A DNA stretch of 39,424 bases. Origin: Hyphococcus sp. Its GTDB lineage: Bacteria > Pseudomonadota > Alphaproteobacteria > Caulobacterales > Parvularculaceae. Every line of letters begins with the position of its first letter. Position 1 is the stretch's first letter. The translations under genes were made by a program, and so were the position numbers. The notes under the pieces are model-generated. The model was not told the origin of the DNA and searched no databases. It was given only the letters and a program-made list of their open reading frames with translations. Below are positions 12,729 through 21,020 of the stretch, piece after piece. The stretch is from contig JAJFGE010000155.1 in the NCBI GenBank assembly GCA_021776295.1, positions 1 to 39,424 on the forward strand. Direction: 5' to 3'.

Positions 12729-13554
12729 TTAGGCGCTGAGACGGGGGGCTATCGGCCTAAAAAGAAGTCGATATATTCCAGGGATTTCCGCCCGCTGCGG
12801 GGTCTGTGTGGCGATGGCGTGCGCTGCGACCGGCTCGGGGCTGGCGAGCGTGCACCAGAATTTATAATCCTTCTCGCATGCGCAAGGCGGCTCCCACGCG
12901 CCATAATCCAGCGGCGCGACGGAGATGTTGGCGGCAATGAGCATGCTTTGGTCACGCACGCGGCAGGTAATCTGGACCGTTGTTGCATTCCCGGAGCTGA
13001 GATTGATGAAATAGAGCGTGTTTTTAACGCCAAGCGCATTGCCCTGTTCGGTCGTGACGGTGACGCGCCGTCTGACGCTGCTCGGTTCTATCTTCGTGCG
13101 ACTGAAGCTTAGTTGCGTCGTCGATGCTTTGAATGCGGGTATTGTCGCCGCTGTTTTGTTGTGTCGCGAGTTGCGCTGCGCTGCTTGCACTGGCGCCGAG
13201 TTGTTGCCCGCCGAGCTGTTCTTGTAGAATTTCTCTGTCCGTTTTGCCGCTTTCATCACCGGGATTGGCTGGCCTGACACTCACTCTTGCGCCTGTAACG
13301 CCGGCGCCGGACGTGGCTCCGCCGCCAGAGTGTTGAATCAAAACAGGCGTTACCCACAACCGCCCGACATGTGCATTTGCTGCCGGCTGGTTGAGCACAG
13401 GTTCGGTAAATTCAATTTCAGGAACCGGTAGGCGCGGCGCTTGCGGGTTGACAAGTTCGGTTTGAAACTGTTCATCGATTTGCGCGGCGCCTGGTCCTGC
13501 AAAAAGACCCATCACGGGCAGCAAAGAGACGGTAATGATGGTCCTGATTTTCAT
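12729..13554 (-). pseudogene. Frameshifted gene for a secreted protein of unknown function
   Basis: An ORF starts at ATG 13554 behind a good Shine-Dalgarno (ggggagag), with a signal peptide (MKIRTIITVSLLPVMGLFAGPGAAQ). It reads sensibly to about residue 145 and then runs into an Arg/His-rich tail ending at 13024. From about 13140 onward the next frame (+1 relative to it) continues as a sensible protein without a start of its own: TVTTEQGNALGVKNTLYFIN, then two cysteine-bearing segments (QITCRVRD, PPCACEKDYKFWC), to a stop at 12729. Joining the frames gives about 275 residues with a proline-rich N-terminal part and a Cys-containing C-terminal part. One extra base around 13090-13140 would explain it: a real mutation, a sequencing error, or less likely programmed frameshifting. 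No family was recognised. It lies next to the palindrome-rich region at 13.8-14.0 kb. Confidence 0.6.
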
Positions 13555-13730: not shown

Positions 13731-13796
13731 GATTTCTCGCTCCTTCAATAATTCTTTTATAGTCGAGTACAAGCTGTAGCAGTTTGCACAGATGGA

Positions 13797-13813
13797 TTAG
13801 CGTATTAATACAT
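13797..13813. promoter_or_regulatory. Operator-like palindrome, copy 1
   Basis: ttagcgtattaatacat contains the dyad GTATTAATAC at 13802-13811. This 17-base sequence is the exact reverse complement of copy 2 at 13887-13903, so the two stand in opposite orientation, 87 bases apart centre to centre. Confidence 0.55.
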
Positions 13814-13886
13814 AAATATAAGATGACTGGCGTCATTCTTTTAATCACCACGATGGTTTGTCGGTTTGTTTGCATGGTGCGTGTTC

Positions 13887-13903
13887 ATGTATTAATACGC
13901 TAA
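13887..13903. promoter_or_regulatory. Operator-like palindrome, copy 2
   Basis: atgtattaatacgctaa has the dyad GTATTAATAC at 13889-13898 and is the exact reverse complement of copy 1. It lies about 330 bases upstream of the minus-strand secreted-protein gene and about 220 upstream of the TrpR-like gene. Confidence 0.55.
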
Positions 13904-14007
13904 AATAGAAGAGCAATACCGGATATCTCCACGATCGCGTATCCTGAGCGCTCACGACAATTCATTCGCACTCACAATATTTCATTTGCCGCTTGCCTGG
14001 GATGGCC

Positions 14008-14025
14008 TAATGTATTAATACATTA
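14008..14025. promoter_or_regulatory. Operator-like palindrome, copy 3, before the TrpR-like gene
   Basis: TAATGTATTAATACATTA is a perfect 18-bp palindrome, with the core at 14012-14021. It ends 95 bases before the ATG of the TrpR-like regulator, a usual place for an autoregulatory operator. Confidence 0.65.
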
Positions 14026-14120
14026 AACAGTAAAGCCGGCGCCGCCTGTCTAAACTTTATCGCAATCATAGATTTCGGCGGGCGTATCTGAACAGCAGCG
14101 GAGTGAAGGAGGTTTTGAAC

Positions 14121-14435
14121 ATGCGCGGACCGGCAAGCAGAAATTTCAGCGCCAGGCGCGCGAAGGATGAAAAGGCTTTGTTTAGCGCTTTTGCCAAATT
14201 AAACACCGGCGCAGAGGCGGCGCGGTTCCTGCGCGACCTGGCGACGCCGGCGGAATTGGAGGCTTTTGCGGAGCGCTGGCGGATTGCGAAAATGCTGGAC
14301 GCGGGCGGGCATTCTTATCGCGATATCGCCGCAGAAACCGGCGCCTCGACAACCACCATCGGCCGGGTCGCGCGGTTCCTCCGCGAGGAGGCGCATCAGG
14401 GATATCGTCTCGTTCTGGACCGCTTGCGCCGATAA
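14121..14435 (+). CDS. TrpR/YerC-family transcriptional regulator
   Basis: A 104-residue member of the TrpR-related YerC/YecD group. It is all-helical, with DEKALFSAFAKLNTGAEAARFLRDLATPAELEAFAERW followed by a helix-turn-helix (HSYRDIAAETGASTTTIGRVARFL, about residues 63-86) that corresponds to the TrpR reading head. TrpR proteins bind palindromic DNA as dimers; the ligand of YerC-type members is not well established. The ATG at 14121 is chosen over a GTG at 14103 because a strong aaggagg stands eight bases before it. Four copies of one palindrome lie within about 820 bases around it, and hisG follows on the same strand, so control of itself and of histidine synthesis is a reasonable inference. 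Whether L-histidine or another small molecule is the corepressor cannot be told. Confidence 0.88.
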   Translation: MRGPASRNFSARRAKDEKALFSAFAKLNTGAEAARFLRDLATPAELEAFAERWRIAKMLDAGGHSYRDIAAETGASTTTIGRVARFLREEAHQGYRLVLDRLRR

Positions 14436-14459
14436 CACGGCCCCGGGAAGGCTGCAATC

Positions 14460-14507
14460 CTATGGCGATGCTGGCCTATGGCGATGCTGGCCTATGGCGA
14501 TACTGGC
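14460..14507 (+). repeat. Three tandem copies of a 16-bp unit
   Basis: ctatggcgatgctggc at 14460-14475 and 14476-14491, then a copy with one change (ctatggcgatactggc) at 14492-14507. It begins 24 bases after the TrpR-like stop codon and lies in the 323-base gap before hisG. Confidence 0.9.
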
Positions 14508-14600
14508 CGTTTCAGGTTCTTTCTCAGCCTGTTTCCCGGTTCATTTTGTTAGCCGCCTGTCCAAATTACCGGGCGATTTTATAGAACACGAATTTGTGTA

Positions 14601-14628
14601 TTGTATTACTGTATTAATACAGTATATC
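14601..14628 (+). promoter_or_regulatory. hisG: Operator-like palindrome, copy 4, with overlapping possible hisG promoter
   Basis: TACTGTATTAATACAGTA (14607-14624) is a perfect 18-bp palindrome around the shared core GTATTAATAC (14611-14620). A weak promoter match, TTGTAT (14601-14606) and TATATC (14623-14628) with a 16-base spacer, would place the dyad exactly between the -35 and -10 boxes, the classic position for repression. The promoter call is tentative, with 3 of 6 and 4 of 6 consensus matches. The operator is about 135 bases before the hisG start. Confidence 0.55.
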
Positions 14629-14721
14629 AGACCCGATAACTGACGCAAACTAAGCGGGAAGGCTCGGAAAAGTGATACCGACAGGAGCGGCGCAATTTAG
14701 TGGTGTAAGTATCGGCATGCG

Positions 14722-14737
14722 GTGCTGCGTGCAGCAC
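14722..14737 (+). promoter_or_regulatory. Hairpin just before the hisG ribosome binding site
   Basis: gtgctgc-gt-gcagcac is a 7-bp perfect inverted repeat (two-base turn, so the top pair would open) ending 21 bases before the hisG ATG. It could limit ribosome access or mark a leader structure. No U-run follows, so it is not an ordinary terminator. Confidence 0.3.
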
Positions 14738-14758
14738 GAGACCAAGGGAAAATAAACG

Positions 14759-15643
14759 ATGGAAGAGCGGTTGCGGATTGCGATCCAGAAATCTGGGCGC
14801 CTGTCGGAGGGCAGTATCGAGCTTTTAAAAAGTAGCGGCCTGTCGATTTCGCGCGGCAAGGACAAGCTTTATGGCCGGGTGCAGGAAATGCCGATCGACG
14901 TGCTGCTCCTGCGCGACGACGATATCCCGGAATTCGTTTCCGACGATGCTTGCGATATCGGCATTGTCGGGCAGAATGTTTTTCAAGAAGAGGGCCTGGC
15001 GCAATCGCGCGATGCGCCGGCGCGTGAAGTGCGCACGCTCGGCTTTGCGCGGTGTAATTTAATGCTGGCTGCGCCGAAGGACTGGACCTTTGACGGCGCC
15101 GGCATGCTCGAGGGCAAACGTATTGCCACATCTTATCCGGGCCTCACCAAAGCCTGGCTTGAAAGCCATGGCGTCAGCGCCTGCGTGGTGACGATGAAGG
15201 GCTCGGTCGAGGTTGCGCCGCGGCTAAAAATCGCCGACGCGGTTTGCGATATCGTTTCCACTGGCGCAACGCTCGACGCCAACGGGCTAAAACCGGTGGC
15301 GACGGTGTTTGAGAGCCAGGCGCTTTTGATCCGGAATGCGAATGACTTTTCCGCCGCCAAGCAGGCGATCTTTGACGCGCTGATGAAACGCATCAACGGC
15401 GTTCTGACATCGCGCGACGCAAAATATGTGATGATGAATGCGCCGCGCAGCGCGGTCGCTGCGATTACGGAGTTCCTGCCGGGAGCGGAGGCGCCGACCG
15501 TTCTCGATCTTGCGGGCAATCCCGACAAAGTCGCCATTCACATGGTGTGCCGCGAAAGCGTCTTCTGGGACACTCTTGAAGAGTTAAAAAAACTCGGCGC
15601 CAGCGCTATTTTAGTCCTGCCAATTGAAAAGATGATGGTGTGA
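14759..15643 (+). CDS. hisG: ATP phosphoribosyltransferase, long form
   Basis: Catalyses the first committed step of histidine synthesis, joining ATP and PRPP to give phosphoribosyl-ATP. The 294-residue length and a C-terminal region from about 215 that matches the ACT-like HisG_C domain mark the long, homohexameric, HisZ-independent type, which is normally inhibited by histidine. The catalytic part has RLRIAIQKSGRLSE at the start, CDIGIVGQNV, and the PRPP-binding segment ADAVCDIVSTGATLDANGL. The start is ATG 14759. No other his gene adjoins it except the regulator upstream; hisD is about 4 kb downstream. The leader between the operator at 14607-14624 and the ATG is about 134 bases. Control by the TrpR-like protein is inferred. 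Confidence 0.95.
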   Translation: MEERLRIAIQKSGRLSEGSIELLKSSGLSISRGKDKLYGRVQEMPIDVLLLRDDDIPEFVSDDACDIGIVGQNVFQEEGLAQSRDAPAREVRTLGFARCNLMLAAPKDWTFDGAGMLEGKRIATSYPGLTKAWLESHGVSACVVTMKGSVEVAPRLKIADAVCDIVSTGATLDANGLKPVATVFESQALLIRNANDFSAAKQAIFDALMKRINGVLTSRDAKYVMMNAPRSAVAAITEFLPGAEAPTVLDLAGNPDKVAIHMVCRESVFWDTLEELKKLGASAILVLPIEKMMV

Positions 15644-19727: not shown

Positions 19728-21020
19728 ATGATCAAAAGACTCAATGCCCATGATGAAGGCTTCAAACAAGCCTTCGACGCCTTCGTCATGCAGGAACGCG
19801 AAGGCGGTGCAGACGTTGCGGAAGTGGTGCGCGATATTATCAAGGCGGTGCGCGCCGACGGGCTCGCGGCTGTCAAAACTTACACCCAGAAGTTTGACGG
19901 GTTTGAACTCACCGATGACAACATCAAAGTCAGCGCTGACGAGATTGATCGCGCCGAGGCGGCTTGCGAGCCGGACGATTTGACGGCGCTGGATTTCGCC
20001 GCCGCGCGCATTCGTTCCTATCACCAACGTCAAATGCCGCGCGATGAGCGCTATACCGATGATATGGGCGTGACGCTCGGCTGGCGCTGGACCTCAGTCG
20101 ATGCAGCGGGGCTTTATGCACCGGGCGGGCGGGCGGCTTATCCGTCGAGCGTATTGATGAACGCGATCCCGGCGAAGGTTGCGGGCGTCGGACGCCTCGC
20201 TATGGCAACACCGGCGCCCAAAGGCCAGATGAACCCGTTGGTGCTGGCGGCTGCCAAACGCGCCGGTATTGATGAAATCTACCGTATCGGCGGCGCGCAA
20301 GGCATTGCCGCGCTGGCGTTTGGCGCGGGGCCCATTGCGCCGGTCGATGCTATTGTCGGGCCGGGCAACGCCTATGTCGCAGAAGCCAAGCGTCAGGTGT
20401 TCGGCCATGTCGGCATCGACAGCATCGCCGGTCCGTCGGAGATTCTCGTTGTCGCGGATGGCAAAAACAACCCCGAATGGATTGCCGCGGATTTGCTGTC
20501 GCAGGCCGAGCATGACCCGTCGTCGCAGAGTATTCTGATTACGGATGATGGAGGCTTTGCCGACAAGGTCAGCGCGGCGGTGGACGAGCAATTAGCGGCA
20601 AGCGCGCGCAAGACGATCGCTGACGCCGCGTGGCGCAACAATTCCGCAATCATCACTGTGGCGTCGTTGGAAGACGCGCCGGCGTTGGTTGACCGCATCG
20701 CACCGGAACATCTGGAGCTGGCGGTTGATGAGCCCGAAGCCCTGCTCGCGAAAGTGCGTCACGCCGGCGCCATCTTCCTTGGCCGTTTGACGCCGGAAGC
20801 GGTCGGCGATTACGTCGCCGGGCCGGACCACGTTCTGCCGACAGCGCGCGCCGCACGTTACGCCTCCGGCCTGTCGGTCATGGATTTTATGAAGCGCAGC
20901 TCAATCATCGGCTGCGATGAAGCAGCGCTTGCCAAAATCGGCCCCGCTGCGGCGCGCCTCGCCGACGCAGAGGGGTTGCCGAGCCATGCGAAGTCGGTGC
21001 GGGTGCGGTTGAAGCAGTAG
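19728..21020 (+). CDS. hisD: Histidinol dehydrogenase
   Basis: Catalyses the last two steps of histidine synthesis, oxidising L-histidinol to L-histidine with two NAD+ and one zinc ion per subunit. The 430-residue product shows the NAD/substrate segments DAAGLYAPGGRAAYPSS, VGPGNAYVAEAKRQVFG and the GIDSIAGPSEI stretch, and the histidine-rich part RIAPEHLELA near the C-terminus. The ATG at 19728 follows ggtgag. Unlike hisG it has no GTATTAATAC site that I could see upstream; its promoter may lie in the repeat-bearing gap, or it may be transcribed from murA. Confidence 0.97.
   Translation: MIKRLNAHDEGFKQAFDAFVMQEREGGADVAEVVRDIIKAVRADGLAAVKTYTQKFDGFELTDDNIKVSADEIDRAEAACEPDDLTALDFAAARIRSYHQRQMPRDERYTDDMGVTLGWRWTSVDAAGLYAPGGRAAYPSSVLMNAIPAKVAGVGRLAMATPAPKGQMNPLVLAAAKRAGIDEIYRIGGAQGIAALAFGAGPIAPVDAIVGPGNAYVAEAKRQVFGHVGIDSIAGPSEILVVADGKNNPEWIAADLLSQAEHDPSSQSILITDDGGFADKVSAAVDEQLAASARKTIADAAWRNNSAIITVASLEDAPALVDRIAPEHLELAVDEPEALLAKVRHAGAIFLGRLTPEAVGDYVAGPDHVLPTARAARYASGLSVMDFMKRSSIIGCDEAALAKIGPAAARLADAEGLPSHAKSVRVRLKQ

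Follow-up and report, generated by a model that had tools for sequence, protein, structure and literature searches.

The hisR-hisG locus of Hyphococcus sp., lying in a window of 39,424 nucleotides (the whole stretch of DNA that was analysed), very probably functions at its core as a switch with which HisR, itself autoregulated, controls entry into histidine synthesis. It is a histidine repressor locus ordinary in kind and unusual in its operator layout: hisR and hisG have separate predicted operator modules, three and one, whose boxes overlap at an 8-bp stagger (Table 1). As a regulator class, the main idea of the original prediction is already in print. In the part of the paper available to us, HisR (YerC) is described for Firmicutes, Actinobacteria, Synergistetes, gammaproteobacteria and alphaproteobacteria, with 11 alphaproteobacterial genomes included and Rhodobacterales and Caulobacterales named, and is predicted to be autoregulated and to repress his genes in response to histidine (Ashniev et al., 2022; PMC9413887). 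The same portion of text reports that histidine improves DNA binding by R. gnavus HisR, and a HisR regulon has been proposed for Clostridium acetobutylicum, as far as the accessible text of PMC3828012 goes. The nearest named relatives of the organism studied here are MAGs called Marinicaulis, which the taxonomy gives as Hyphococcus, Parvularculaceae.

Table 1. Features of the hisR-hisG region and predicted operators; mismatches are to GTRTTA-N6-TAAYAC, for the first and second 18-mer, and spacers run from the TTG element to TAATAC.
Feature	Position	Strand	18-mers or palindrome	R1 score (bits)	Mismatches	TTG element and spacer (bp)	Basis or remark
Operator pair 1, distal to hisR	13794..13819	+	18-mers 13794-13811 / 13802-13819	21.2	1 + 2	TTGCAC 13784-13789, 16	
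Operator pair 2	13881..13906	+	18-mers 13881-13898 / 13889-13906	17.8 on -, 15.4 on +	1 + 2	TTGCAT 13870-13875, 17	
Operator pair 3	14004..14029	+	18-mers 14004-14021 / 14012-14029; palindrome 14008-14025	22.4	3 + 3	TTGCCT 13993-13998, 17	Ends 91 bp ahead of hisR ATG; poorest 18-mer fit among the four
hisR (YerC/YecD-type, TrpR family), 104 aa	14121..14435	+					Profile and PDB relatives
hisR-hisG gap, expanded, 323 bp	14436..14758						Close relatives likewise; HisG tree
Operator pair 4, between hisR and hisG, serving hisG by position	14603..14628	+	palindrome 14607-14624	28.0	0 (14603-14620) + 3	TTGTGT 14594-14599, 15	Best R1 score in the window
hisG, long form (HisG + HisG_C), first histidine-synthesis enzyme	14759..15643	+					
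hisD	19728..21020	+					TIGR00069; 4 kb from hisG here
Operator arrays away from the his locus							L001, L036, L108-L111, L113, L121, L122, L125, L127, L159 (own genome and relatives)

The identity of the regulator is clear from its profile matches. Its sequence, with the ATG start picked by alignment with relatives (MRGP...), scores 67.7 bits against the HisR/YerC model TIGR02531 (cut-off 42.2) and 73.3 bits against PF01371, which bears out the TrpR/YerC-family assignment made from the sequence alone; PDB entries 3kor, 3frw and 3g1c are solved relatives found by sequence. Among the conserved recognition residues named in the accessible part of PMC9413887, Thr81 and Arg84 are kept and Ala80 is replaced by Thr in an alignment made by eye. 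Family membership, together with an operator that resembles the TrpR motif, could also fit a tryptophan-sensing TrpR that lies beside hisG by chance, but the probability of this is close to negligible: the trpR equivalog model TIGR01321 gives 27.4 bits, below its cut-off of 67.25, and the neighbours are his genes. Same-strand hisG lies downstream of hisR in 56 of the 58 fetched relative loci, the his linkage that marks HisR, and hisD accounts for six of the eight frames tested downstream of hisG (five of them in other genera and one in G020; the remaining two, from core genus members, have no family match). Among the flanking genes that were inspected at a part of the sites, in a look at neighbours rather than a dedicated trp search, no trp gene was recognised. 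The hisG product itself is above the cut-offs of TIGR00070 and TIGR03455 and matches PF01634 and PF08029.

Exact copies of the decamer GTATTAATAC stand at 13802, 13889, 14012 and 14611, as the original prediction had it, and a scan of the whole window, with one mismatch allowed, found no fifth. Not one of 100 dinucleotide shuffles of the window held at least four copies at up to one mismatch, and the expectation per window is 0.012 from base composition or 0.005 from a dinucleotide model, so that the earlier estimate of about 0.01 was right. Two copies can be read directly from the sequence as perfect 18-bp palindromes, again as first noted: 14008-14025, 95 bases ahead of the ATG at 14121, and 14607-14624, ahead of hisG. 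What we correct is the view of the decamer as a single operator. Judged from the sequence comparisons below, it is best read as the junction, or overlap, of two predicted 18-bp HisR boxes (GTRTTA-N6-TAAYAC) staggered by 8 bp.

An 18-mer of this form is found upstream of hisR at p<=0.05 in 48 of 59 loci, the window included (60 shuffles each). In genus loci a second good box often starts 8 bp on, for example GTATTAGCGTATTAATACAGTGATAC in G022. We scored outer half-sites at each offset beyond the anchored 18-mer, weighting each genus equally and comparing 26 offsets, with 1, 2, 7 and 9 left out. Among the 48 sites with at most two mismatches (the window among them), offset 8 ranks first of the 26 on both sides (z 4.5 right, 5.8 left); it is also first on both sides outside the genus (z 4.5 right and 5.6 left; 24 sites, 10 other genera), and reaches z 3.8 on either side within it (24 sites). 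Offset 2, which stood outside the ranking, is the next best after 8 in the full sets, and on the right side of the nine genus sites lacking an exact decamer it lies slightly above offset 8 (-2.5 against -3.0). This statistical footprint suggests the geometry that tandem dimers would need. Tandem TrpR binding involves boxes 8 bp apart; a 1993 title by Lawson and Carey reportedly concerns such tandem binding of TrpR dimers.

The simpler arrangement would be one HisR dimer centred on the decamer palindrome, the flanking half-sites being mere decoration. Two of the four window copies are indeed perfect 18-bp palindromes about the decamer centre, and the alignment behind our operator profile (R1), whose sites were largely chosen for holding the decamer, is best conserved at this core. 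We nevertheless consider a single dimer unlikely. The decamer is absent from the 500 bp upstream of hisR in all 33 fetched non-genus loci, 24 of which have an 18-mer with at most two mismatches, typically one strong copy such as GTGTTAGCGCGCTAACAC; the proteobacterial motif printed in PMC9413887 is likewise of this long form; and the half-sites 8 bp outward are conserved. From these comparisons, occupancy of the staggered boxes by HisR dimers in tandem seems the better supported expectation, one that we hold to be reasonably probable.

Conservation among relatives agrees with an operator function. TIGR02531 has a match in 60 of the 119 genomes searched, own genome included, and 58 relative loci were fetched, leaving out G031, whose match is a fragment lying at the edge of a contig. 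Of the 11 loci (out of 59) without a significant 18-mer upstream of hisR, seven have a different palindrome, and in G003 the decamer stands before hisG rather than hisR; no recognisable operator was seen upstream of hisR in L037, L088 and L094. For profile R1 we took 28 of the 33 candidate sites, selected largely by presence of the decamer, from his-locus arrays of 20 genomes, own genome excluded; the five left out by judgement of register (L042, L050, L051, L085, L087) all lack the decamer. R1 finds only the four sites in the window (Table 1; better strand), the next match scoring 3.6 bits. Across the genus it has a match at E<=1 in 26 of 28 genomes, and the only genomes that have none, G005 and G024, are also the only ones lacking a hisR match. 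Six matching genomes gave R1 no sequence (G000, G002, G009, G010, G012, G017), and each of the six has its best match immediately ahead of hisR or, in G000, of hisG, although three of these best matches are weak (E 0.16 in G002, 0.36 in G017, 0.40 in G012). The palindrome that the original prediction proposed to trace in relatives is thus conserved ahead of hisR or hisG, by both the 18-mer counts and the held-out R1 matches, and, as expected of a HisR system, his genes are preceded by a palindrome of roughly 20 bp that is specific to the lineage.

The position of the operators suggests an overlap with promoters. On the gene strand, 20 of 29 his-locus decamers have a TTG 15-17 bp ahead of TAATAC, against 4 of 29 on the other strand (Fisher p 4e-5, only a guide, since related genomes do not count as independent). 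This spacing is shared by all four window copies and by at least one copy in 12 of 18 genomes. Among 13 scattered operator-like decamers it occurs in none of the 26 strand-views; this set omits 9 of the 22 outside decamers as not operator-like (L112, L114, L116-L120, L123, L124), of which three (L117, L119 and L120) do show the 15-17 bp TTG spacing, in each case on one strand. A scan with the standard sigma-70 consensus called no promoter at any of the four window sites. From the TTG spacing we infer a promoter at the operators.

In the model that we propose, a HisR dimer with histidine most likely binds 18-bp boxes of the form GTRTTA-N6-TAAYAC. Given that the centres of a box pair are 8 bp apart, neighbouring dimers would sit in tandem, sharing GTATTAATAC. 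Each array would span a putative promoter spacer and -10 element (TAATAC), and bound HisR would then exclude RNA polymerase from hisR at three modules and from hisG at one. When histidine falls, HisR would come off, and hisG and hisR would be made; rising HisR and histidine would close the loop again. HisR binding, histidine as co-repressor and the direction of control are deduced by comparison and from the accessible text of PMC9413887, which together support the original proposal of an autoregulated repressor of histidine synthesis with histidine as its likely signal.

Decamers also occur away from the locus. The own assembly (3.08 Mb, 186 contigs, 85.5% complete) has nine copies of GTATTAATAC versus three of the reversed control pattern, and five of the nine are outside the window; at two mismatches the search is uninformative, the control pattern giving 264 matches and the motif 91. 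In the 28 genus genomes there are 52 decamers versus 43 of the reversed control, with 29 of the 52 at the his locus, in 18 genomes. Where a genus genome has exactly one decamer, nine times out of ten the copy is at hisR/hisG (the tenth genome is G027), so the motif is not an ordinary genome-wide repeat. The original prediction had named such a repeat as its undoing: copies elsewhere do exist, yet the single-copy genomes favour the his locus.

Operator-like sites outside the his locus are confined to few genomes. At E<0.1, R1 finds 13 such places, all in G000, G006, G007, G014, G019 and G026 (leaving aside a further place some 1.3 kb ahead of hisR in G006), and none in the other 22 genus genomes; at E 0.1-1 there are six more, G001 and G016 contributing three. 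Judged by open reading frames, convergent genes flank 10 of the 13 and genes of the same direction flank one, while two are at contig ends. Four places in three genomes represent one orthologous locus, and the 10 convergent places therefore amount to seven distinct loci. Pfam names both neighbours at three convergent loci and one neighbour at two; at L125 it names neither. One locus differs between genomes: G000 and G007 have the stretch of DNA that contains the site, and G006, G019, G026, G008 and G022 lack it. In L149 (G000:C3), between a gene and a scattered operator, there is an inverted repeat built on CCCCGCTTTCGCGGGGATGAGCG, recognised by eye. A mobile element shared by the scattered sites was sought and not found; the three longer stretches in common are not located at the operators (61 bp at 85% between the region upstream of hisR in G026 and the gap in G006, 42 bp at 88% between C136 and C12 of the own genome, and 27 bp between L108 and L115).

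These sites bear on whether the palindrome is a dispersed repeat or the dyad of a bidirectional terminator, such that the hisR copies would not be operators at all. The convergent setting of most operator-like copies, in six genomes, would suit such a dyad, and the own genome is rich in another one, CTAGACCATCGGGCGATT...AATCGCCCGATGGTCTAG, with 37 forward and 38 reverse half-copies at up to two mismatches (control 0); two of the five scattered decamers, L127 (C12) and L036 (C136), are near a copy of it. However, similarity among non-orthologous scattered copies stops after about 28 bp at the sites, longer shared pieces being elsewhere; a terminator was called at none of three scattered sites scanned, the one call in L125 being about 76 bp off; and both the TTG spacing, a property of the his-locus copies and not of the scattered ones, and the placement of the decamer in most single-copy genomes speak for operators. 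We therefore regard the repeat or terminator explanation as very unlikely, and take the hisR and hisG copies to be probable HisR operators. A more adventurous idea, to which we give little credence, is that HisR in a small Hyphococcus-like group gained a non-repressor role via operator arrays between convergent 3´ ends. If true, HisR with histidine at convergent sites would act as a roadblock or a chromosome-organising point, and transcription ends or chromosome layout would be tied to histidine supply.

The wide spacing of hisR and hisG belongs to a subclade. Among 57 loci with both genes on one contig, the distance is at most 100 bp in 50 (L048 counted as close) and 151-546 bp in seven, the window among these at 323 bp. 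In G019 hisG is on a separate contig with an operator ahead of it (L115); in L065 hisG was not found within 3 kb of hisR. All eight genomes in which more than 100 bp separate the two genes, or in which these lie on different contigs, retain a decamer ahead of hisG. The HisG tree places the window with G006, G007, G019 and G026 (99/97) and then with G011 (98/91), and all five have a wide or split arrangement. Three decamers lie within 560 bp upstream of hisR in G000, G006 and G007, and G006 has an additional one at -1268. Its hisR-hisG gap (L069) also holds a 47-codon remnant of a second hisR, which groups with the hisR of G027 and not with the intact one of G006 (97/91; just 44% of the columns are filled) and has an operator on each side, one just before hisG. 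The two genes have moved apart in this subclade; an operator of its own has stayed with hisG, and hisR has three here.

Further HisR targets were sought with R1 across the 28 genus genomes, in which hisC was also located. Neither the window hisD nor 22 of 23 genus hisD loci has an R1 site; the one match is in G017, where hisD follows hisR-hisG. In the sister lineages checked hisD adjoins hisG. These patterns suggest a regulon that is apparently shrinking to the regulator and the first pathway enzyme. Two other features of the region deserve mention. Within the hisR-hisG gap, at about 14462-14510, there is a short tandem repeat of about CTATGGCGATGCTGGC, in nearly three copies by eye. On the minus strand at 12729-13554 are two overlapping open frames without a Pfam match, the first with a signal-peptide-like start, which may be one frameshifted gene; since they are divergent from hisR, the distal operators could serve them too.

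A sister genus, g11 (L045, L049, L052, L053, L058, L066, L073), offers a comparison of protein and operator. All seven of its HisR sequences read [QH]ASPTTVV in place of the [SC]T[AT]T seen in nearly all others, and all seven loci have another palindrome upstream of hisR, about TTCCACTGTTACAGCATAGTGGAA with variants, as judged by eye. The altered recognition segment and altered palindrome are consistent, at the level of sequence, with a co-change of protein and operator. With both changed, this genus may represent a natural specificity swap.

Compared with the HisR systems in the available text of PMC9413887, the locus shares a TrpR-family protein, his linkage, an upstream palindrome of about 20 bp and autoregulation (predicted here), and the proteobacterial motif printed there, TGTAnTArnnnnyTnTTACA, is close to our 18-mer; it differs in its separate modules, in a hisD without a site and in boxes staggered by 8 bp. 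With TrpR of gammaproteobacteria it shares the family and, by the passage of PMC9413887 that cites a TrpR half-site, an eight-bp spacer, whereas TrpR itself is set apart by the failed equivalog cut-off and by its neighbours. The portions of the HisR literature available to us contain no report of staggered sites, which does not prove that there is none. What is new here, then, are the overlapping boxes 8 bp apart and the scattered operator-like sites in a few close relatives. The latter raise a concrete question for ChIP-seq. The overlapping boxes would provide a testable operator model like that of tandem TrpR binding, and the locus places a repressor class known mostly from Gram-positive bacteria in a further alphaproteobacterial group.
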